NCBI GenBank assembly: GCA_022071965.1 | Contig: JAJVIQ010000001.1 | Span: forward strand, 1 to 64,000 | Direction: 5' to 3' | Origin: Gammaproteobacteria bacterium | GTDB lineage: Bacteria > Pseudomonadota > Gammaproteobacteria > JAJPIJ01 | Length of the DNA stretch: 64,000 bases | Shown: positions 2,339-18,018 of the stretch, one piece after another | Layout of the letters: each line of letters starts with the position of its first letter | Position numbering within the stretch: the stretch's first letter is position 1 | Notes under the pieces: generated by a model | Seen by the model: the letters and a program-made list of their open reading frames with translations, nothing else | What the model was told of the DNA's origin: nothing | The model's database searches: none | Translations under genes and position numbers: made by a program

Positions 2339-2874
2339 TGCAGTGTGATGCCGCCCTTCTCGGTGTCGAAGTCGATGACGAGGACCTGCGCCGGGGCGAG
2401 ATGCACGCGACGCTCGAGCCTGTAGGCGAAGCCCGCGCTGCGCACGTCGTCGCGCAGGCGCACGCTGATCAACCGCTCGCCGGCGGGCACCGGCAGCCGC
2501 CGGTAGATGGACGAGGCGCCATCGCGCGCCAGCCCTGAAGGCGCGGCCTCGGCGCGCACCGCCGGCGCCCCGTCGATGTCGAGCTCCACCGTCACCGGCG
2601 AGCGCTCACGCGGACACTGCATCGGGGCGCGCATGTTCGGCGGCAGCTTCCCCAGCTCCTCGGGCGTGAGCGGCCGGCAGTCGCCCACGGGCTTGCCGGT
2701 GTGCACGAGGCTCAGCTTGACGAGCGCGAGATCGGCGGCCAGGTGCTGGTACGGAGGCCAGTGCGAGAACACCCCGACCGCCAGCGCGAAGAGGCCGTAG
2801 AGCACGAGCTGCCCGGCCCACGCGCGCAGGCCGCGAGGTCCGGCCGGTGCCGAGGTCCTGAAAGATTCAGCCAT
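2335..2874 (-). CDS. Membrane-anchored periplasmic protein of unknown function (179 aa)
   Basis: I do not recognise this family. The protein has one N-terminal hydrophobic segment (about residues 20-40) followed by a roughly 135-residue domain, probably periplasmic. It has two cysteines about 27 residues apart (in GDCRPLTPEE and PMQCPRER) in a proline-rich stretch, and then a beta-rich C-terminal part. No CxxCH heme site is present. It overlaps the fusion cytochrome b gene by eight bases upstream if that gene starts at 4450 or 4459, and the heme-copper-like gene by four bases (ATGA) downstream, so it is translated as part of this operon. An assembly factor or accessory subunit for the neighbouring membrane complex is plausible but unproven. 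Confidence 0.75.
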   Translation of the reverse strand: MAESFRTSAPAGPRGLRAWAGQLVLYGLFALAVGVFSHWPPYQHLAADLALVKLSLVHTGKPVGDCRPLTPEELGKLPPNMRAPMQCPRERSPVTVELDIDGAPAVRAEAAPSGLARDGASSIYRRLPVPAGERLISVRLRDDVRSAGFAYRLERRVHLAPAQVLVIDFDTEKGGITLQ

Positions 2875-4450
2875 GATGCATCTTCGCTTTTGGGCGGCGA
2901 TTTTCCTTGATCTCGGGCAAGCGCGCCCGCATCGAGGCCACCGCGACCTCGAGCACGGCCTCCTCTCCGGCGTCGGCCTGGATCAACCGCACGCGTGCGC
3001 GCGGCACGCGTGTGCGCAGGCGGGGCTCGCGCGTGCCGTCCAGGCGCTCGGCGGTCCAGCGCGCGCCGAGACGGAAGGCGCAGCCGCCGTCACGGCAGCT
3101 CGCTACCAGCACGCCGGCGGCACCGTCGCGCAGCGCGTATTCGACGAACGATGGCGGCAGCTGACCGGTGCAGATGAGCGGCAGCGCGAGGACGTCGGGG
3201 GCGGTGACGCGGCGTGCGTCGGCGCCCTGCGCGCAGCCGAAGACCACGATCCCTCGCGAAGACGGCAGCCTCCCGAGCCCGCTCCGCAGCCGCTGCCGCA
3301 GATCGCCCACCGGGAGCTGCGGCATGTCGATACCCGTGACCAGGGCCGCGGTGCTGCGAAACGGGGTCGATGACGGGCAGGCGCCCGCGCAGATGCCGCA
3401 GCTCGCGCACAGCTTGGGATCCACCTGCGCCAGCTCGCGGCCGATCCGGCGGATCGGGTGCGGGACCATCGTGATGGCCGCGAATGGGCAGTCGGCGAAG
3501 CAGCGCCGGCAGCCGTTGCAGTTCACCGGGTCGACCACCGCCGCCGGAGGGCGCTCCGCGGGGCTCCCGAGCCGCGGTACCGCGGCCGGCAGGAAGGGCA
3601 GGGCGAGCAGCGCGCCGAATATCCCCAGCGTGAGAGCCCAGGTGAAGCCGGCGGAGGTCGCGTACATCAGCGGATGCACGAACAGCAGGATCCAGTCCAG
3701 ATCGAGCGGTGTCGGCACGCGTGCCAGGTCCGCCGGGCCCTGGCCCGTCACCGGCGCCGCGCAGGCCAGGACGAGCAGCGCGCCGAGCGTGCCGAGCGCC
3801 AGCGCACGCGGCGGGAATACCGTCGCCCGCGTGATCCGCTGGATGTGGAACCACAGCCCGAACAGCAGCAGCAGAGGCACCCCGACATGCACGAAGACCA
3901 GCAGCGAGAACAGCCGGTCGCTTACCGATTCGCTGCCCAGGAAGTTGCGCGCCAGCGGGTTGGCGAGCAGTGGCAGCGCGTCGAGCCACTCGGCGGTGGC
4001 GACGGCCGAGAACTGTCCGAGGCGGTCCCAGTTCAGCCAGAAGCCGCCGATGGCGCTCACCGCGGTCAGCGGCAGCAGGGCGGCGCCCGTCAGCCACGAG
4101 TAGCGGCGGAAGTGGCGCCAACGGCCGTGAAGCGCCTCGCGCAGCAGGTGCAGGACGGTGAACACGACGAAGGCATCGGCGGCGTAGCGGTGCAGGCTGC
4201 GTATCAGTCCGCCCGGGGACCACGGCGCGCGCGACAGGCGCATGATCGAGTCGTATGCGCCGCCGGCCGAGGTGTCGAACACGGCGTACAGCCAGATCCC
4301 CGACAGCGCCAGCAGCCAGATCGCGAGGAAGCCGAGGGCGCCGAGCTGCCGCAGCGGGTTCAATCGGGCGTCGAAGGCGCGGTCGAAGCCCTGTTCCAGG
4401 CGGCGCCACGCCGCCAGGGCCCTGGTACTCGGAAACTCCGACGCTTTCAT
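2867..4450 (-). CDS. Cytochrome b - diferredoxin - FlpD/MvhD fusion protein
   Basis: A three-part redox protein of 527 residues. Residues 1-290 are a b-type cytochrome with His pairs H87/H101 and H188/H202 (14 apart). Residues about 308-365 hold two [4Fe-4S] motifs (CNGCRRCFADCP and CASCGICAGACP). Residues about 400-500 match the FlpD/MvhD domain, with four Cys placed as in the [2Fe-2S] site (GCAQGAD, LICTG, ASCRDGGC). MvhD normally links hydrogenase or formate dehydrogenase to heterodisulfide reductase in the cytoplasm. Here the fusion would connect cytoplasmic low-potential carriers to membrane hemes. I chose ATG 4450; an in-frame TTG at 4459 adds three residues. Neither has a strong ribosome site. 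The electron donor is unknown. Confidence 0.85.
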   Translation of the reverse strand: MKASEFPSTRALAAWRRLEQGFDRAFDARLNPLRQLGALGFLAIWLLALSGIWLYAVFDTSAGGAYDSIMRLSRAPWSPGGLIRSLHRYAADAFVVFTVLHLLREALHGRWRHFRRYSWLTGAALLPLTAVSAIGGFWLNWDRLGQFSAVATAEWLDALPLLANPLARNFLGSESVSDRLFSLLVFVHVGVPLLLLFGLWFHIQRITRATVFPPRALALGTLGALLVLACAAPVTGQGPADLARVPTPLDLDWILLFVHPLMYATSAGFTWALTLGIFGALLALPFLPAAVPRLGSPAERPPAAVVDPVNCNGCRRCFADCPFAAITMVPHPIRRIGRELAQVDPKLCASCGICAGACPSSTPFRSTAALVTGIDMPQLPVGDLRQRLRSGLGRLPSSRGIVVFGCAQGADARRVTAPDVLALPLICTGQLPPSFVEYALRDGAAGVLVASCRDGGCAFRLGARWTAERLDGTREPRLRTRVPRARVRLIQADAGEEAVLEVAVASMRARLPEIKENRRPKAKMHHG

Positions 4451-4516
4451 GGCACGCAAACCGGCCGGCGCGTGGGAAGAACCGTTACGGCCGCGCGCCC
4501 GTGCGCCGGCGCAGGA

Positions 4517-5368
4517 TCAGTGGGCCGCGTTCGCCAGGGGCGTCGCGCAGGCGCGGCGTATCCGCCGCTGCTCCCGGCGCTCGCGCCAGAGGTACACGCC
4601 TACCGTCGTGAAGAAGGCGAGCCCGCCGAGCACCTCGAACAGCAGCCCCCAGTCGTAGCGGTACTCGCCGGTCTCCGGGTCGTAGACCGTGCACAGGATG
4701 CGCACGCGCTCCACCAGTTCCTCGAGGGAGAACGCACCCCCGGCCGGCGGTGCGCCCAGCATCAACGCGCGCAGCACCGCGCCCAGCGCCTCGGTCGTGA
4801 GGCGATCGTTGTAGACCTGGCTGTGGATGCGGCCCCCGGCGTCCAGCACGGTCACCCCGACGATATGATCGAAGCCGGCCGGGGTCTCCACCCAGCTGAA
4901 GCCGAAGGCGCGCGTCAGCGCGTCCACATGCCTGGCGTGCGGGCTGAGGAACTCCCAGTTCGGGTAATCGATGCGGTGCTGCGCGGCGAACGCGCGCATG
5001 GCCTGCGGCGTGTCGAACGGCTGGTTGAAGCCGATGGACAGCACGTTGAACTTGTCGGGGCCGAGCATGCGATCCAGTCCCTTGACGGCCTCGTGCAGGG
5101 TGCGCGTCTGCGTCGGGCAGATCGTGAAGCAGCCCGTATAGATGAAGCTCACCAGCAATGGCTTGCCGCGGTAATCCGCCAGCCGCACCGGCCGTTCGCG
5201 GCGATCGAGCAAGGTGAAGTCGGGGGGCGTGGTGCCGATCACCGCCTGGCTGGCGCGCAGCGCGGCGGTCTCGTCGAGGCGGGGAACGCCGCCGGCGCGG
5301 GTCGGTGTCGCGAACGCAATGCCCAGAGCGAGGACGGCCGCGGCGAGAAGCTCAGCGCAGCATCGCAT
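4517..5368 (-). CDS. SCO1/SenC-type copper chaperone with C-terminal membrane anchor
   Basis: A 283-residue thioredoxin-fold protein that delivers copper to the CuA site of heme-copper enzymes. The metal site is the CxxxC of TGCFTICPT plus the later His in GFDHIVGV. The N-terminus (MRCCAELLAAAVLALG) is a signal peptide. A hydrophobic segment near the C-terminus (about residues 242-262) and a basic tail form a membrane anchor, which is longer than in the minimal SCO1 fold. The start at 5368 was preferred because the longer upstream reading frame is the wrong frame of ctaB; this start overlaps ctaB by 17 bases. Its place beside a CuA subunit II fits its role. Confidence 0.9.
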   Translation of the reverse strand: MRCCAELLAAAVLALGIAFATPTRAGGVPRLDETAALRASQAVIGTTPPDFTLLDRRERPVRLADYRGKPLLVSFIYTGCFTICPTQTRTLHEAVKGLDRMLGPDKFNVLSIGFNQPFDTPQAMRAFAAQHRIDYPNWEFLSPHARHVDALTRAFGFSWVETPAGFDHIVGVTVLDAGGRIHSQVYNDRLTTEALGAVLRALMLGAPPAGGAFSLEELVERVRILCTVYDPETGEYRYDWGLLFEVLGGLAFFTTVGVYLWRERREQRRIRRACATPLANAAH

Positions 5369-6251
5369 CGATCGCCACCGCCACGATGAGCACCGACAAC
5401 TGCGCCATCGACGCGAAGAAGGCCGCCATCGCCGTTCGGCGCTGCGGATCGCGTGCCAGGGCATGCGTGCGGTGCAGGAAGTAGGCGCCGCCGGCGAGCG
5501 CGCCGGCCAGGTATACTGGCCCCGCGCCGAAGGCAAAGGGCAGCAGCGACGCGGTGACGAGGGCGACGGTGTTCAGGTGCACGATGCGCGCGGCGCGCCG
5601 GGTGCCGACCACCACCGGCAGCATCGGGATGCCGGCGGCCGCGTAGTCCTCGCGGTTGGCGATGGCCAGGCTCCAGAAGTGCGATGGCGTCCAGAGAAAA
5701 AGGACCAGGGCGAGCAGCAGCGGCAGCGGCCCGAGCGAGGGGTCCGCGGCCGCCGCGCCGGTGAGCACGGCGAAGCTGCCGGCCAGCCCCCCGATGACGA
5801 TGTTGAGCCAGGTGCGGCGCTTGAGCATCACCGTGTAGACCACCGCGTAGGTGAATGCCCCGAGGAACAGATACAGCGCCGCGACGCCGTTGAGCGTGTA
5901 CCACGTCGCCGTCACCGACAGCGCGAGCAGCCCGACGATGAGCGCCATCCATCCGGCGCCCGGATGCAGCGTGCCCGTGGCGAAGGCGCGGGCGCGGGTG
6001 CGCTTCATCAGGCGATCGCTGTCGGCCTCGATGAACTGATTGAAGGCCCCGGCGCTGGCGGAGGCCACCAGCACCGAGATCGCCATCACCAGCACCTCCC
6101 AGGGCGCCGGCATCGGTGCCGGTGCGATCGCCAGACCGCCGAGAGCGGTGACCATGATGAGCACGCCGATCCGGAGCTTGAAGACCCCGAGCACGGTGCG
6201 CCAGTCCGGCGCTGCGGTTACGGCGTCGCTTCGAACCAGGGTGCTGGTCAT
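5352..6251 (-). CDS. ctaB: Protoheme IX farnesyltransferase (heme O synthase)
   Basis: This UbiA-family membrane prenyltransferase of 299 residues attaches a farnesyl chain to heme B to give heme O, the substrate of the heme A synthases encoded at 9210-11192. The first Asp-rich motif is clear (NQFIEADSDRLMKRT, containing the N/DxxxD signature), as is the second loop (WTPSHFWSLAI, with REDYAAAGIPMLP after it). About nine membrane helices are predicted. It lies between the SCO gene (17-base overlap) and heme-copper subunit I (43-base gap). The enzyme encoded upstream therefore probably carries heme O or A rather than only heme B. Confidence 0.95.
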   Translation of the reverse strand: MTSTLVRSDAVTAAPDWRTVLGVFKLRIGVLIMVTALGGLAIAPAPMPAPWEVLVMAISVLVASASAGAFNQFIEADSDRLMKRTRARAFATGTLHPGAGWMALIVGLLALSVTATWYTLNGVAALYLFLGAFTYAVVYTVMLKRRTWLNIVIGGLAGSFAVLTGAAAADPSLGPLPLLLALVLFLWTPSHFWSLAIANREDYAAAGIPMLPVVVGTRRAARIVHLNTVALVTASLLPFAFGAGPVYLAGALAGGAYFLHRTHALARDPQRRTAMAAFFASMAQLSVLIVAVAIDAMLR

Positions 6252-6294: not shown

Positions 6295-7995
6295 TCAGCT
6301 CAATCCCCAGACAGTCGACAGGTACTTCCAGTTGATGAAGTAATAGAGGACGAACGCCACCAGGAAGACCATCGCCAGCACGAAGGTGCCCGGCGCGGCG
6401 AAGCCCGCGGATCCGTAGGTCTGCGCCACCAGGGTGGGTGCCGCGCGCGGCACCGGCGTGAACTTCGGGCTGGTCTCCCCGCGTTCGAGGCGCCTGCCCC
6501 AGAGCAGTGAACCGACGGTGACGTAGATGTAGATGGCGCCGCCGGCGATGGCCGCCAGGCCGGAGATGCCGACCAGCCCCATCATGAGGTAGGCCGCGCC
6601 GGGCCACTCGTAGGCCAGTGCGTTGCCCTGGAAGGCCATGTCCCAATGCCGCCGGGATACCCCGAGCGTGCCCGCGCCCATCATCACCAGGGTGAAGAAG
6701 TACATCGAGAAGCCGAACAGGTACGGCTGCCACTTCGCCAGTTGCGGCGCGATCATCTCGCGCCGGAACAGCACCGGGATGAGGTAGTAGGTCAGCGCCA
6801 TGAAGGTCAGTGTGGTGCCTATCACCACGGTGGCGTGGAAATGCCCCGGCACGTAGATCGTGTTGTGGATGATCATGTTCAGCTGCTCGGTGCCCATCAT
6901 CACGCCCGAGATGCCGCCGAGGAAGCCGAAGCCGATGATGGCGATGAACACGCCCGAGAAGGTCGGATTGCCCCACGGTGCCTTGCGCAGCCACTCGAAC
7001 AGCCCCTTGGTGTAGCCCTTCTGCCGCTGCGCGACTTCCATCGCGCCCGGGATGGTCAGGCCGTGCAGCATCGACGCGAGCACCGCGAAATACATGAAGT
7101 AGCTGGTGTTGAGGACCTTCCAGCCGGTGGACAGGCCCGGGTCGGCGAGCAGGTGGTGGGCGCTCGCGAGCTGCAGGAACAGGATGTAGAGCAGGAACGC
7201 CGTGCGGCTGACGCGCTCGCTCATCGGCTTGGCGCCGAAGGCGATGGCCGCGACCAGGTACCACACCGAGATGTGCGCGGCGACGTTGATCTGCTGCGAG
7301 GAGTGGCCGAGGGCCCACCAGATGGTGCGGTACGCGAGCGGATCCACCTGGTCGATCACGCCCAACGACTTCAGCCAGGTCGGGATCAGGATGATCGCAC
7401 CGGAGACGAGGGTGAACACCGCGATGATGGCGGCGGTGATCGCGCCGAAGGTCACCAGCGGCACCGAGCCCTCGTAGGTCTTCTCGTTCTTGGCCACCAC
7501 CAGCGTGCCGAAGAACACGAAGCAGGCGATCAGCGCGCCCACCGCGAACAGGATGAGGCCGAGATAGAAGTTCGGTTCGGCCATCATGGGCACGTAGGAG
7601 GTCATCATCACGCTGGAGGCACCGCGGAACACGGCGATGTTGTTGACCACCGAGCCGATGATCATCAGCGCGAAGGCGAGCCACGCGATCCTCGGCGTGG
7701 CTATGCGACAGCGCAGCAGCGTCGAGGCGCAGAAGTAGAGCACCGCGATCTCGAAGAAGATGATCCAGAAGATCAGCATGTCGAGCCCGTGCGCGGTCAG
7801 CGCCATGTAGAACGTCTGGGCCTCGAGCCAATGCACCGCCGGCCAGCGCGTGAGCACGACCCCTATGGCGAGCAGGCCGCCGATCAGCAGCCAGACGACG
7901 GCGACGAAGGCGTTGGCCTTGATCAGCCACTCGGCCTGGGATTCGAACTGGAGCCCGGAACGCGGGCAGGTACGGTAGGTGGTCGCGATGCTCAT
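6295..7995 (-). CDS. Heme-copper subunit I, CuA-type, lacking the active-site Tyr (candidate nitric oxide reductase)
   Basis: Catalytic subunit of 566 residues, closest in plan to B-family (ba3-like) enzymes. All six metal ligands are visible: H69 and H387 (low-spin heme), H385 (high-spin heme), H231, H280 and H281 (CuB), in the motifs WALGHSSQQ, ASAHHLLADPG and VPGHFHATV. In oxygen reductases of the A and B families the residue four after the first CuB His is the cross-linked Tyr (GHPxVY); here it is Gln235. Loss of this Tyr is a known feature of nitric oxide reductases in the superfamily, and the gene shares DNR-type sites with nirS. I therefore read it as a CuA-containing NO reductase of the eNOR/sNOR kind; an oxygen reductase is less likely. 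Subunit II follows upstream after 10 bases. Confidence 0.85.
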   Translation of the reverse strand: MSIATTYRTCPRSGLQFESQAEWLIKANAFVAVVWLLIGGLLAIGVVLTRWPAVHWLEAQTFYMALTAHGLDMLIFWIIFFEIAVLYFCASTLLRCRIATPRIAWLAFALMIIGSVVNNIAVFRGASSVMMTSYVPMMAEPNFYLGLILFAVGALIACFVFFGTLVVAKNEKTYEGSVPLVTFGAITAAIIAVFTLVSGAIILIPTWLKSLGVIDQVDPLAYRTIWWALGHSSQQINVAAHISVWYLVAAIAFGAKPMSERVSRTAFLLYILFLQLASAHHLLADPGLSTGWKVLNTSYFMYFAVLASMLHGLTIPGAMEVAQRQKGYTKGLFEWLRKAPWGNPTFSGVFIAIIGFGFLGGISGVMMGTEQLNMIIHNTIYVPGHFHATVVIGTTLTFMALTYYLIPVLFRREMIAPQLAKWQPYLFGFSMYFFTLVMMGAGTLGVSRRHWDMAFQGNALAYEWPGAAYLMMGLVGISGLAAIAGGAIYIYVTVGSLLWGRRLERGETSPKFTPVPRAAPTLVAQTYGSAGFAAPGTFVLAMVFLVAFVLYYFINWKYLSTVWGLS

Positions 7996-8005
7996 CGTGT
8001 TCCCC

Positions 8006-8545
8006 TCACTTGACGTAGAGCCGGCCGACCATCTGGTGGTGGCCGATACCGCAGTACTCGTTGCAGACGATGGAATAGGTGCCCGACTGGTTCGGCGTGA
8101 CCGTCACGACGTGTTCGAAACCCGGCACGATCTGGATGTTGATATTCACGGGCTGCAGCGAGAAGCCGTGGTTGTAGTCCAGGGACGTCAGATGCAGCCG
8201 GTAGGTCTTGTCCTTCTCCAGCTCGAGGATCGGCCAGAAGCTCCACAGCCGCGCGACCAGGTAGACGTCGCTGCCCGGCGGCGGGGCGACCACCGGGATG
8301 TTCTGATCCGTCTCCGTGCGCACCGTCCACTTGTCGACCACGGCCTGGGCCTTGGTGGTGAACTGCTCGGGCGTCGTGCGGTAGGTCTCGGTGGAGAGGT
8401 TCTGCTTGCCCCAGATATGCCAGCCGATCATCATGAAGAACATGATGAGGCACCAGGTCAGCGCAATCGCGATCCAGGTGCCTTCGACGCGGTCGATCGG
8501 ATGCTTGTACCAAAGGCGCTCGGTCGGGGGAAGGATGGCGCTCAT
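8006..8545 (-). CDS. Heme-copper enzyme subunit II with intact CuA site
   Basis: A 179-residue subunit with one N-terminal helix (about residues 22-44) and a periplasmic cupredoxin domain. The CuA ligands are complete and spaced as in Thermus ba3 oxidase: H126 (DYNHGFSLQ), C161, E163 (backbone ligand position), C165, H169 and M172 (CNEYCGIGHHQM). It accepts electrons from a soluble c-type cytochrome or similar carrier and passes them to the low-spin heme of subunit I. Classical cNOR and qNOR lack CuA, so a CuA subunit paired with a Tyr-less subunit I is notable. It is translated with subunit I (10-base gap). Confidence 0.92.
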   Translation of the reverse strand: MSAILPPTERLWYKHPIDRVEGTWIAIALTWCLIMFFMMIGWHIWGKQNLSTETYRTTPEQFTTKAQAVVDKWTVRTETDQNIPVVAPPPGSDVYLVARLWSFWPILELEKDKTYRLHLTSLDYNHGFSLQPVNINIQIVPGFEHVVTVTPNQSGTYSIVCNEYCGIGHHQMVGRLYVK

Positions 8546-8582: not shown

Positions 8583-8738
8583 TCACTTCGCCGCCGGAAT
8601 GGTCATGATGTCGATGACGCCCCAGAGGTTGTAGACGATCATCGGGATCAGGACGCCGAGAAACAGCAGCAGAAACGGATTGTCCAGCAGTTTCTGCATG
8701 AACGGGACTGGCGCGTTTTCATCCTCGTGCTGACTCAT
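8583..8738 (-). CDS. Small single-helix subunit (IIa-like) of the heme-copper enzyme
   Basis: A 51-residue protein with a polar N-terminus (MSQHEDENAPV) and one long hydrophobic helix (LLLFLGVLIPMIVYNLWGV). The size, topology and position directly ahead of subunit II match subunit IIa of ba3-type enzymes, which supplies a helix missing from the short subunit II. The ATG at 8738 is preceded by AAGGAG about seven bases upstream. This is the first gene of the minus-strand operon; 237 bases separate its start from the proximal DNR-type box. Confidence 0.75.
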   Translation of the reverse strand: MSQHEDENAPVPFMQKLLDNPFLLLFLGVLIPMIVYNLWGVIDIMTIPAAK

Positions 8739-9209: not shown

Positions 9210-10139
9210 ATGGCGTCACAAATGAGCACCGCCACGGCGGCCAATTGGAATGATCGTCTGCTGGGCCTCGCGGTCGCGTTGACGCTCGCGGTGGTCGTCC
9301 TGAGCGCCTATCTGCGCATCGCGGCGGCGGACCTGGGCTGCGCCGCCTGGCCGGCCTGCTATGCGCGGCTGAGCGCCGTGCAGGAAGGGGCCCGCGGACC
9401 GGCGCGGGCCATGCATCGCGCCACCGCCTCCACGATCTCCGTCGTCGTGCTCGGCTATCTGATCGTTGCACTCCGGCGCAGGCGCGACCGGGTGGCCGCT
9501 CTGGCCATGACGGCTCTCACGGCGCTGCTCGCGTGGGTAGGCCTGCACACGCCGTCGCCGCTCGAACCCTGGGTCACGCTGGTGAACGTCGCCGGGGGCA
9601 TGGCCCTGCTCGCGCTCTGCGGGTGGCTGTGGCTGCGGCCCGGCGCCGCCGCGGCCGGCCCCTGGAGTCGGCGCCGGCTCGCGGCCGCCGTGGGCGTGGC
9701 CGTGGTCTACACCCAGGTCGCGCTCGGCGCCTGGGCCGCGGCGCATTACGCGGAGCCGGCGTGTCCAGGGCTGTGGTGCCCGGGCGAGGTGTCGGCAGGA
9801 CGTCTCGCCGATGCGTTCGATCCCACGCGGAGGCTGAGCGTCGCGGAGGGGCGCATCGCGATCGACGAGGCCTCTGTGCTCGTGCAGCGTGCGCACCGGC
9901 TGGGCGCGTTCGTCACGTTCCTGTTCTTGAGCATGCTCGTCTTGTACGCGCCGGCCCGTACGGCGGCGTCGCGCCAAGCCGGCCTCGCGCTCCTCGCGGT
10001 CCTGTCCGTCCAGGTCGCGCTCGGCATCGGGGCCAGCCTGTGGGGCTATCCCATGTGGGCCGCAGTCGGCCACAATGCGCTGGCGGCGGTTCTCCTGCTC
10101 GCCGTCGTGCGCCTGTATCACGCATACGCCCGGGACTGA
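9210..10139 (+). CDS. COX15/CtaA-family heme A synthase-like protein, one heme His replaced by Asn
   Basis: A 309-residue eight-helix protein of the heme O to heme A monooxygenase family. It carries the beta/gammaproteobacterial signature around DLGCAAWPACYARL, with C44 and C50, and a second Cys pair (C185/C190 in ACPGLWCPGE). Three of the four expected heme ligands are present: H69 (RAMHRATAS), H229 (VQRAHRLGAF) and H288 (VGHNALAA). The fourth, normally His in a LHLLGG motif, is Asn126 (TLVNVAGGM). It may have altered chemistry, or act as a partner of the full synthase encoded three bases downstream. The start is uncertain: ATG 9210 and ATG 9222 are both possible, and neither has a good ribosome site. 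Confidence 0.8.
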   Translation: MASQMSTATAANWNDRLLGLAVALTLAVVVLSAYLRIAAADLGCAAWPACYARLSAVQEGARGPARAMHRATASTISVVVLGYLIVALRRRRDRVAALAMTALTALLAWVGLHTPSPLEPWVTLVNVAGGMALLALCGWLWLRPGAAAAGPWSRRRLAAAVGVAVVYTQVALGAWAAAHYAEPACPGLWCPGEVSAGRLADAFDPTRRLSVAEGRIAIDEASVLVQRAHRLGAFVTFLFLSMLVLYAPARTAASRQAGLALLAVLSVQVALGIGASLWGYPMWAAVGHNALAAVLLLAVVRLYHAYARD

Positions 10140-10142
10140 ATC

Positions 10143-11192
10143 ATGATTTCATTTGCCCAAGCTGGTCGCCGCGGCCCCGTCGCCGCATGGCTGCTCGTGT
10201 GCTGTGCGCTCGTCTTCGCGATGATAGTCCTCGGGGGCGTCACCCGCCTGACGCGCTCGGGCCTCTCGATCGTGGAGTGGCAGCCGATCGTGGGCGCCAT
10301 CCCGCCGCTGACCGCGCAGCAATGGGAGGCGGAGTTCGAGAAGTACAAGCAGACGCCCGAATACCTCGAGGTGAACTCCGGGATGAGCCTCGCGGAGTTC
10401 AAGGAGATCTACTGGGTGGAGTACGCCCACCGCCTGCTGGGCCGGACGATCGGATTCGCCTTCCTCGTGCCGTTCCTGTACTTCCTGATACGCAGGCAGA
10501 TCGGGCGCGAGCTCGCACCGAGGCTCGCGGGCCTGTTCGTGCTGGGAGGATTGCAGGGGGCGATGGGCTGGTACATGGTCGCCAGCGGACTGGTGGACGA
10601 CCCGCACGTGAGCGCATACCGCCTCACGGCGCACCTCGGGCTCGCGGTGATCATCTATGGCTACATGCTCCTCGTGGCGCTCGATCTGCTGTATCCGCAG
10701 GCGCGGCCCGCGCCCGCGGGGGTGCGGCGCTACGCCCTGACGCTGAGCGCGATGGTGTTCGTCACCATCCTCGCCGGCGGCTTCGTCGCCGGCACGCGCG
10801 CGGGCTTCGTGTTCAATACCTGGCCGCTGATGTACGGGCGTCTCGTGCCGGAGGGCCTTTACGCCCTGAGCCCGTGGTGGGTCAATCTCTTCGAGAACGT
10901 CGCCACGGTCCAGTTCAATCACCGCTGGCTCGCCTACGCCGTCGTGGTCGCGACGGTGCTGCTGTGGGCCGCGGTGCGCCGCTCATCGACGACGCCGCGC
11001 GCGCGGACGGCGGCGCATCTGCTGCTCGCCGCCGTGACGCTGCAGTTCGCACTCGGCATCGCGACGCTGCTCGCGGTCGTTCCCCTGTCGCTCGGCGCCG
11101 CGCACCAGGCCGGCGCATTGCTGGTCCTGACCGCCGCGCTCTTTCTCAACCACGCGCTGCGCAAGGGACCGGCGTCCCGCTCCTTCGGCTAG
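10143..11192 (+). CDS. ctaA: Heme A synthase, alphaproteobacterial/mitochondrial COX15 type
   Basis: A 349-residue membrane monooxygenase converting heme O to heme A. The long first periplasmic loop (VEWQPIVGAIPPLTAQQWE onward) and the motif VEYAHRLLGR identify the COX15 type found in mitochondria and alphaproteobacteria. All four heme-binding His are present: H96, H164 (RLTAHLGLA), H260 (VQFNHRWLA) and H321 (GAAHQAGAL). It starts three bases after the preceding CtaA-like gene, so the two are co-transcribed, and together with CtaB (5352-6251) they complete a heme A pathway next to the heme-copper enzyme. Confidence 0.92.
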   Translation: MISFAQAGRRGPVAAWLLVCCALVFAMIVLGGVTRLTRSGLSIVEWQPIVGAIPPLTAQQWEAEFEKYKQTPEYLEVNSGMSLAEFKEIYWVEYAHRLLGRTIGFAFLVPFLYFLIRRQIGRELAPRLAGLFVLGGLQGAMGWYMVASGLVDDPHVSAYRLTAHLGLAVIIYGYMLLVALDLLYPQARPAPAGVRRYALTLSAMVFVTILAGGFVAGTRAGFVFNTWPLMYGRLVPEGLYALSPWWVNLFENVATVQFNHRWLAYAVVVATVLLWAAVRRSSTTPRARTAAHLLLAAVTLQFALGIATLLAVVPLSLGAAHQAGALLVLTAALFLNHALRKGPASRSFG

Positions 11193-11514
11193 CCGCCCCC
11201 GGGCGGACAGGAGGCTCCGCCGGGCGCGGAATCTTCGGATCCCCGCGCATGCCGACGGCAGACGCCGCGGGCGCGTGTGCCGCACGGCTCCGCCACCACC
11301 CCGTTGACAGCGATGACCGAGGACCCGTGCGCACCGGCCGGCGCTCATTGATTCTCGTCAAGGAGACTCGCCTGCCGCGCACGCGATAGTTCGTGGATCG
11401 GGCCTCGATCACCGCGCCAGTGCTCATCGCCCCAGCGGCGCCCAAATCGCAGGGAAGGCCTCCGTGATGGTGCCGGTGCGGCCGTCCCCCCGGAATTCGA
11501 CGAGGAGCGCCGGC
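11193..11514. other. Gene-free region upstream of the polytopic membrane protein
   Basis: This 322-base stretch contains one FNR/DNR-type box (11348-11361) and the ribosome site of the next gene (GAGGAG at 11502-11507). I see nothing else that I can support. Confidence 0.5.
11348..11361. promoter_or_regulatory. FNR/DNR-type operator
   Basis: TTGATTCTCGTCAA joins a perfect FNR left half (TTGAT) to a GTCAA right half. It lies 153 bases before the start at 11515, suggesting that the membrane protein gene belongs to the same regulon as nirS and the heme-copper operon. Confidence 0.65.
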
Positions 11515-12780
11515 ATGCGTCTCGCCTACGAACGATCGCCGTCCATCAGCCTTCCCTACCGGTTTTTCGCCTCGGGACTCCTGTTTGCGATCCTCGTCTC
11601 CGCGGCGGTCATGTTCCTGGGCGAGGAGCTCTGGGTATCGCGCTGGAACCCGGCGACGATCGCGGCCGTACACCTCTACGCGATCGGATTCATGCTGCAC
11701 ACCATGATCGGGGCGCTGTTTCAGATCCTGCCGGTGGCCACGGGCGGCGAACTGCCGATGGCGCCGCGGGTGGCGCGGCTGACGCACCCGCTGCTGATCG
11801 TGGCGGCAATCTCGCTGCCCGCCGGGATGTGGAGGCAGGCTCACGCGCTGCTCATCCTCGGCACCGTCGCCGTCGTCATCGGGCTCTCCCTGTTCCTGGG
11901 GGCGGCGGCCGTGGCCATGGGCAGGGCGCGCGCCCGCGGACCGTCCTTCATCGCCGTGGCCTGCGCGCTGTTGTCGCTGGCGGTAGGGCTCGCACTCGGT
12001 GCCTGGGCGGTGGCAGGCCTGCTGGGGGCGTCGCTGGACTTCATCTCCGCCGTGCGTCTGCACGCCGGCTGGATGCTCGGCGCGTGGGCGGGAAGCCTGC
12101 TCGCGGGCGTGGCCTTCGTCGTGGTCCCGATGTTCCAGGCGACCCCGGAGTTCCCGCGCGTCGTGGTCCGCTGGCTCGCGCCGGCGCTGGTCGCGGCCGG
12201 GCTGTGCATGACCGTGCCGCTCGCCGGCGCGCCGGCCGCCATGCTGCCGCTCGGGCTGTGGGTATTTGCGGCCGCCATACTGGTGTTCGCGATGACGGTG
12301 CTCCGGTTGCAGCGCCGCCGCCGGCGGGCGAGGACGGATGCGACCTTGTGGTACTGGCGCCTGGCCATGCTGTGCGCGGCGGCGTTCGCCCTCGGGCTGG
12401 CGTGGGCGGGCATGGCGCGGCGGGACCTGTCGCTGCCGCTCGGTGTGCTGCTGCTGCACGGCGTATTCGGATCCGCGATCGCCGGGATGTTCTACAAGAT
12501 CGTCCCCTTCCTCAACTGGCTCTATCTGCAGGAGCGCGTCAGCAACGCGCCGAAGATCGACCGGATGATCCCGGCGCGCGCGCAGGCTGCGCAGTTCACG
12601 CTGCACGTGGTGGCGCTGGCGGCCCTGCTGGGCGCGAGCCTGTGGCCTGCCCTGGGCTCCCTGGCCGGCGGCGTGATGCTGGCCGGCTACGCGGCGCTGG
12701 CGTGGAACGTGATGCGCGGGATGTGGAGGTGCCGCGAGCTCACGGCCGGTACTCGCGCAAACGCCGCACGTCGTGTATGA
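11515..12780 (+). CDS. Polytopic membrane protein of unknown function, DNR-regulon candidate
   Basis: A 421-residue protein of about 12 helices. I do not recognise a named family with certainty. Three segments share a His/Gly plus helix plus Pro pattern: FMLHTMIGALFQILP, LHAGWMLGAWAGSLLAGVAF followed by VVVP, and LLLHGVFGSAIAGMFYKIVP. This recalls helices that hold heme in heme-copper subunit I and in the NO-related membrane protein NnrS, but the NnrS signature is not present. The start at 11515 has GAGGAG seven bases upstream; a longer frame from 11464 is less likely. Its end overlaps the convergent dnr gene by 41 bases. A role in NO metabolism or heme handling is inferred from location and the upstream box only. 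Confidence 0.75.
   Translation: MRLAYERSPSISLPYRFFASGLLFAILVSAAVMFLGEELWVSRWNPATIAAVHLYAIGFMLHTMIGALFQILPVATGGELPMAPRVARLTHPLLIVAAISLPAGMWRQAHALLILGTVAVVIGLSLFLGAAAVAMGRARARGPSFIAVACALLSLAVGLALGAWAVAGLLGASLDFISAVRLHAGWMLGAWAGSLLAGVAFVVVPMFQATPEFPRVVVRWLAPALVAAGLCMTVPLAGAPAAMLPLGLWVFAAAILVFAMTVLRLQRRRRRARTDATLWYWRLAMLCAAAFALGLAWAGMARRDLSLPLGVLLLHGVFGSAIAGMFYKIVPFLNWLYLQERVSNAPKIDRMIPARAQAAQFTLHVVALAALLGASLWPALGSLAGGVMLAGYAALAWNVMRGMWRCRELTAGTRANAARRV

Positions 12781-15827: not shown

Positions 15828-18018
<2,191 letters not shown>

Follow-up and report, generated by a model that had tools for sequence, protein, structure and literature searches.

Gene content of the operon and architecture of the fusion protein

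The window (the whole stretch of DNA that was analyzed, 64,000 nucleotides) begins with a run of genes all transcribed in one direction, in the order small TM protein, eNOR subunit II, eNOR subunit I, CtaB, SCO, fusion protein, hyp179 and COX1-like protein, an order that is conserved among related loci. The features of this region, with the evidence for each assignment, are as follows.

1–941 (−): cytb2, another cytochrome b, truncated where the contig starts; full-length relatives occur elsewhere
938–2338 (−): COX1-like protein, 466 aa (PF00115, ligand census)
2335–2874 (−): hyp179, its start overlapping the fusion stop; next to the fusion in 77 of 80 loci
2867–4450 (−): fusion protein, 527 aa (Pfam, alignments, AlphaFold2 model)
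3836–4360 (−): helices A–D of its cytochrome b, residues 31–205, with His87, His101, His188 and His202 (PF00033, invariant His)
3593–3808 (−): helices E–F of its cytochrome b (HMM and MAFFT alignment to the bc1 cytochrome b of the same genome)
3368–3541 (−): two [4Fe-4S] ferredoxin-type motifs, residues 304–361 (Fer4 families, eight invariant Cys)
2906–3250 (−): FlpD/MvhD domain, residues 401–515, with Cys406, Cys427, Cys452 and Cys457 (PF02662, NF040770, MvhD/VhuD chains)
4517–5341 (−): SCO-family copper chaperone, start uncertain (PF02630)
5352–6251 (−): CtaB, haem o synthase (TIGR01473, above cut-off)
6295–7995 (−): eNOR subunit I, haem-copper subunit of NO reductase type, Gln235 (PF00115 and ligands)
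8006–8545 (−): eNOR subunit II, CuA-type cupredoxin (CNEYCGIGHHQM) (PF00116, CoxB)
8583–8735 (−): small one-TM protein, first in the operon; kept in 68 of 80 loci

The fusion is encoded by one open frame, with an ATG start at position 4450 and a TTG at 4459 as a possible alternative. Pfam searches resolved its layout into a bc-type cytochrome b with six TM helices (Cytochrome_B domain, residues 31–205, 65.4 bits), two [4Fe-4S] motifs and an FlpD/MvhD domain (residues 409–513, 47.5 bits against a PF02662 gathering score of 22.3 bits). An earlier note, made from the sequence alone, had proposed this domain order, and both the Pfam matches and the invariant ligands bear it out. The His pairs that it had placed 14 residues apart were localized to His87/His101 and His188/His202, with a spacing of 14 in each, and its two CxxCxxCxxxC motifs and four FlpD-type Cys were recovered exactly, the former as C311xxC314xxC317xxxC321 and C348xxC351xxC354xxxC358. 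The two His pairs lie in helices B and D and supply the ligands for two predicted haems b. These His pairs, the eight Fer4 Cys and the four FlpD Cys did not vary in any of the 32 class orthologues, nor in any of the 78 aligned sequences from the GTDB locus set. The C-terminal part (residues 301–516) matched the HdrA2 C-terminus (NF040770) as well as MvhD/VhuD chains. The four FlpD Cys could bind a putative [2Fe-2S] cluster; C427, C452 and C457 aligned with Cys of MvhD, and C406 did not in the alignment obtained.

An AlphaFold2 model built from 39 sequences (pLDDT 84, pTM 0.85) placed residues 15–294 in a fold resembling helices A–F of complex III cytochrome b (Z ~20–24, rmsd 3–4 Å over ~260 residues). 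The chain following helix F would be cytoplasmic by homology with the bc1 fold, hence the Fe-S domains probably face the cytoplasm in the vicinity of haem bH. In the ef region, HMM and MAFFT alignment paired the segment 'PADLARVPTPLDLDW' of the fusion with 'PADPFKTPSHIAPVW' of the bc1 cytochrome b from the same genome, such that Asp252-Trp253 (nt 3692–3697) falls on the Val-Trp of PVWY in the latter, which corresponds to the Glu-Trp of canonical PEWY. The ef loop of the fusion consequently reads x-D252-W253-x; Pro and Tyr are lost, the acid and Trp are retained, and D252 and W253 were each present in 78 of 78 sequences. Since Asp252 occupies the position of the PEWY Glu, an acid is retained at the catalytic Qo position.

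Substitution of Gln for the cross-linked Tyr four residues after the His is the mark of eNOR (PMC8756737 Table A4). The active site of subunit I contains His231-x-x-x-Gln235, and this Gln was found in 69 of 69 aligned copies; the neighboring "cytochrome oxidase" is therefore an NO reductase of the eNOR type, with Gln where oxygen reductases have Tyr. H69, H231, H280, H281, H385 and H387, the ligands of the low-spin haem, the high-spin haem and CuB, were likewise invariant (69/69), and the CuA ligands C161, C165, H169 and M172 of subunit II were present in 67 of 67 sequences. The operon is of the eNOR type by all sequence tests applied, and encodes a predicted NO reductase. Haloarcula plasmid sequences that matched subunit I carry the Tyr and were rejected as eNOR. 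A second NO-reductase-like haem-copper subunit (FGHQYINATIYM; G000, contig C2:281520–282845, plus strand, locus L196) has Asn at the His+4 position, which fits the rule for sNOR (PMC8756737 Table A4).

The earlier note had described the surroundings as a denitrification island. This holds for eNOR and for NirS (15828–18005, minus strand); the sampled genes past ~19 kb, however, are GST, LysR, MutL, HflK, DnaB and RadA. The NirS carries two cytochrome c domains (residues 62–146 and 218–291) ahead of its d1 domain, and C1-containing Nir genes have been described as restricted to Chloroflexi (PMC8756737). On the strand opposite to the eNOR operon are a divergent COX15/CtaA-like paralogue (9216–10139, plus strand), located just before the canonical CtaA (10143–11192), and a 438-aa membrane protein (11464–12780, plus strand), which gave no Pfam or NCBIfam match and has relatives in some other eNOR loci.

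The protein hyp179 consists of an N-terminal TM helix and a periplasmic-type beta-sandwich (model pLDDT 95) containing the invariant residues Cys66 and Cys87. Fold searches found no informative relative; the best Foldseek match had an E value of 0.02, and the best VIA match was human HGSNAT (Z 9.3, rmsd 2.7 Å, 93 residues aligned). In 62 aligned copies of the COX1-like protein, the haem ligands His81, His228, His359 and His361 were retained and the His-His pair of CuB was lost, with Tyr at position 278 and His, Tyr or Trp at 281. This protein was dismissed as an eNOR-specific partner, being present in 46 of 369 genomes as compared with 33 that have eNOR.

Conservation of the fusion and its co-occurrence with eNOR

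From at least 490 confirmed relatives of the fusion, a GTDB set of 80 loci was assembled, spanning Burkholderiales, Rhodocyclales, Lysobacterales, Acidiferrobacterales, Rhodospirillales and others. Cultured carriers of the fusion include Comamonas granuli and Ramlibacter lithotrophicus. Full-length orthologues, ~40–84% identical, were found in independent genomes across Gamma-, Beta- and Alphaproteobacteria and rule out a frameshift or an assembly join as the origin of the fusion; the earlier note had raised this objection against itself, and the confident AlphaFold2 model also answers it. Among the 80 loci, the fusion was accompanied by SCO in 79, hyp179 in 77, eNOR subunit I in 73 and CtaB in 69. 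Seven loci lack eNOR; in six of them this fits truncation at a contig edge, and the seventh is L146, described below.

Two genome samples were used to quantify the association. In the class sample (369 genomes), the fusion occurred in 34 genomes, eNOR subunit I in 33 and both in 32; in the phylum sample (398 genomes), the corresponding values were 34, 30 and 29. Fisher p values were 1e-42 and 8e-38, respectively, for genomes that are not independent of one another. The exceptions were examined individually: (i) of the fusion-only genomes in the class sample, G259 has an eNOR subunit I cut by the contig end and in G215 the contig ends within SCO, (ii) the fusion-only genomes in the phylum sample (G473, G489, G497, G577 and G628) are incomplete or more than 5% contaminated, and (iii) in both eNOR-only genomes (G264 and G426) the contig ends where the fusion would come next. 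The fusion is a real and widely conserved companion of eNOR in Proteobacteria, and a specific genomic marker of proteobacterial eNOR. Beyond this phylum, plasmids of Thermus and Thermomicrobium carry eNOR-like genes (GHGAQQ) with no fusion in the 20 kb examined, so eNOR chemistry can perhaps do without the fusion. Mirror-tree comparison of the operon genes gave r values of 0.61–0.81 (0.69 for fusion–eNOR and 0.81 for fusion–SCO) and singled out no partner. In four loci from one family (L203–L206, in G552, G488, G577 and G628), two full-length fusions are arranged in tandem with all cofactor residues retained; in G552 they adjoin a divergent eNOR (49% identity, HSTQQ).

At L146 (420–9282), the fusion is found with a Tyr-type (O2) cox1 (HPAVY), COX3, CoxB, SCO, CtaB and a COX1-like protein; neither eNOR nor hyp179 is present. 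An occurrence in a Tyr-type oxidase operon that lacks eNOR is a counterpoint to a function dedicated to eNOR, and would be expected if the fusion were a general module at the membrane through which electrons enter CuA-type haem-copper reductases, an O2 reductase included, its link with NO being secondary. We regard such a general role as improbable, in that L146 is one locus among 80 and eNOR was present in all 16 re-tested high-quality fusion genomes of the phylum sample and in the genome of the window.

In G394, G404, G407 and G430, the pairing persists with the fusion and eNOR on different contigs; SCO goes with eNOR, and the fusion goes with hyp179, often near NirS. In L060, hyp179 and the fusion are joined in one chain. 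The two proteins therefore appear to form a unit, as evidenced by their staying together where they are apart from eNOR and by this single chain. These arrangements bear on another explanation, namely that the fusion sends cytoplasmic electrons to Cu(II) or Cys pairs during SCO-assisted loading of CuA and CuB in eNOR, with the Cys pair of hyp179 as a periplasmic relay. CcoG is thought to play such a reductase part for cbb3 oxidase. The adjacency of SCO (79/80 loci) and CtaB (69/80), the invariant Cys66 and Cys87 of hyp179, and the occurrence of the fusion in the CuA oxidase operon of L146 would all suit a function in biogenesis. Where the operon is split, however, SCO and CtaB remain with eNOR and the fusion and hyp179 do not; ordinary CuA oxidases need SCO but no such protein, and the CX20C pair of hyp179, given its beta-sandwich setting, might form a structural disulfide. 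On balance, a biogenesis reductase seems unlikely.

Cytoplasmic tails and the direction of electron flow

The cytochrome b of the fusion has relatives with other cytoplasmic domains. One is cytb2, present in 58 of the 80 loci; its related cytochrome b bears a tail of [2Fe-2S], FAD and NAD(P)H domains, which in the intact copies of relatives resembles the benzoate dioxygenase reductase BenC. At L045 (2171–4711, minus strand, G156), a cytochrome b is fused to a CysJ-like flavodoxin–FAD–NADPH reductase; the tail scored 548 bits with TIGR01931, below the equivalog cut-off of 668 bits, and the cytochrome b is sister to that of the fusion from the same locus (support 1.0). With FlpD, BenC-like and CysJ-like versions, one cytochrome b platform takes at least three cytoplasmic redox tails. 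NAD(P)H is the electron source in the BenC-like and CysJ-like families, which is the main reason for preferring flow from the cytoplasm to the membrane. The proposed direction draws on analogy with these tails, though, and they are reversible in principle.

We propose that the eNOR branch of respiration has in the fusion a dedicated electron-transfer subunit, fed from a cytoplasmic reductant, a reading to which we give an even chance. Electrons from this reductant would enter at the [2Fe-2S] cluster of FlpD and run via both [4Fe-4S] clusters to haem bH on the cytoplasmic side (His101/His202), and from there to haem bL on the periplasmic side (His87/His188). Haem bL would then pass them to quinone, at a retained site where Asp252-Trp253 replaces PEWY, or to a periplasmic carrier, and either of these would deliver electrons to the CuA subunit of eNOR. 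The sister proteins with cytochrome b–[2Fe-2S]–FAD and cytochrome b–CysJ architecture may play the same part with NAD(P)H as the electron source. The Chloroflexi protein RME88945.1, which adds a cytochrome c domain to cytb6–Fer4–FlpD, has the make-up expected if electrons cross the membrane. Against this reading, subunit II of eNOR has a CuA site, so that bc1, acting through a cytochrome c or a cupredoxin, could supply eNOR unaided.

With respect to the donor, searches of the genome for FlpD, HdrA2 and NiFe-hydrogenase identified none for FlpD: the FlpD of the fusion is the single one, PF00374 gave no match to a NiFe-hydrogenase, and no HdrA was found, the matches to the HdrA2 profile being the fusion tail and weak unrelated stretches. 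CCG-domain matches occurred in three ORFs and are no proof of HdrB. These results mean that partners of the methanogen type are absent, and a complex linked to hydrogenase or Hdr, as in Mvh, was ruled out. The earlier note had invoked the hydrogenase and heterodisulfide reductase link of MvhD/FlpD and had suggested a search for hdr and hydrogenase genes; the link does not transfer to this genome. A better parallel is offered by the sister proteins from these operons, with NAD(P)H-flavin modules on a related cytochrome b. Its suggestion of a low-potential electron input survives in part, as entry from the cytoplasm via the FlpD end is preferred, with the eNOR operon specifically, and not denitrification in general, as the partner.

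The same chain of cofactors could also operate in reverse. Quinol would be oxidized at Asp252-Trp253 on the periplasmic side, one electron entering the high-potential branch of eNOR and the other passing through bL, bH and the Fe-S/FlpD tail to a low-potential cytoplasmic acceptor, which would amount to a quinol-based bifurcation driven by NO. The bc-type fold with helices A–F and the acid that all copies have in place of the PEWY Glu are compatible with this scheme, and in methanogens FlpD/MvhD lies beside the bifurcating flavin (PMC12350162). However, no Rieske protein was recognized among the conserved operon genes: in the window, the operon genes with a family assignment include neither a Rieske protein nor a cytochrome c1/f, the gene order shared by the 80 loci contains neither, and the sequences of hyp179 and the COX1-like protein are not those of Rieske proteins. 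The genome moreover contains no HdrA-type flavoprotein, and NAD(P)H is the usual electron source in the families to which the swapped tails belong. We consider reverse flow quite unlikely.

Returning to input from the cytoplasm, the question posed is which cytoplasmic reductant drives NO reduction via a Rieske-less cytochrome b. If NAD(P)H or ferredoxin were the source, N2O formation would be coupled to the redox state of the cytoplasm and not to the quinone pool alone. In its broadest and rather doubtful form, the proposal is that proteobacterial eNOR reaches beyond bc1 and cytochrome c by means of its own Rieske-less cytochrome b, whose interchangeable tails (Fe-S/FlpD, NAD(P)H-[2Fe-2S]-FAD and NADPH-diflavin) would connect it directly to low-potential carriers in the cytoplasm. 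The result would be a transmembrane redox complex of a new class, in which NO might drive quinone-based bifurcation.

Comparison with known systems

The fusion shares with the cytochrome b of bc1 and b6f complexes the fold of helices A–F, the four haem His, and Trp plus an acid at the PEWY position; it differs in having no helices G and H, in the change of PEWY to x-Asp-Trp-x, and in the fused cytoplasmic Fe-S tail. Its C-terminal part resembles the C-terminus of HdrA2 and MvhD/FlpD in that two [4Fe-4S] sites are likewise followed by FlpD (NF040770 positions 569–773). Unlike these proteins, it lacks an FAD/HdrA domain, the genome encodes no hydrogenase partner for it, and a membrane cytochrome b is attached; the match to HdrA2 covered positions 569–773 only and reached 72 bits, compared with more than 1100 bits for a whole protein, which does not make it a member of that family. 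Among models of selenite/tellurite operon proteins, ExtP was the best NCBIfam match of the cytochrome b core and ExtQ matched the E–F region, but both scores were far below the cut-offs (92 versus 290 bits and 25 versus 150 bits), and the models lack the Fe-S tail. The Qmo complex of sulfate reducers (QmoC, and QmoB with its FlpD tail) similarly combines a membrane cytochrome b with Fe-S and FlpD domains and connects quinones to cytoplasmic Hdr-like modules; in contrast to the fusion, its cytochrome b belongs to another family (narG-gamma-like QmoC), the parts are separate subunits, and FAD is present in the flavoproteins QmoA and QmoB.

A similar architecture is that of the Chloroflexi ORF RME88945.1, with cytb6, Fer4 (DMSOR_beta-like), FlpD and cytochrome c (C1) domains, for which no role was proposed (PMC8756737 Table A3). 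Known from that table listing, it has cytb6–Fer4–FlpD in common with the fusion and the cytochrome c domain as an extra. The earlier note had named a clear role of the same fusion elsewhere as a ground for refutation; the domain set, with a cytochrome c domain added, is on record in Chloroflexi, with no role attached to it (PMC8756737). In literature joining FlpD, cytochrome b and denitrification (PMC8756737; PMC5736913), this architecture is given no role that we could find, and the literature on NO-reductase diversity may already describe the operon genes. As read from sequence, what appears to be new is a bc-type cytochrome b that carries an HdrA2-like tail and is tied to eNOR.
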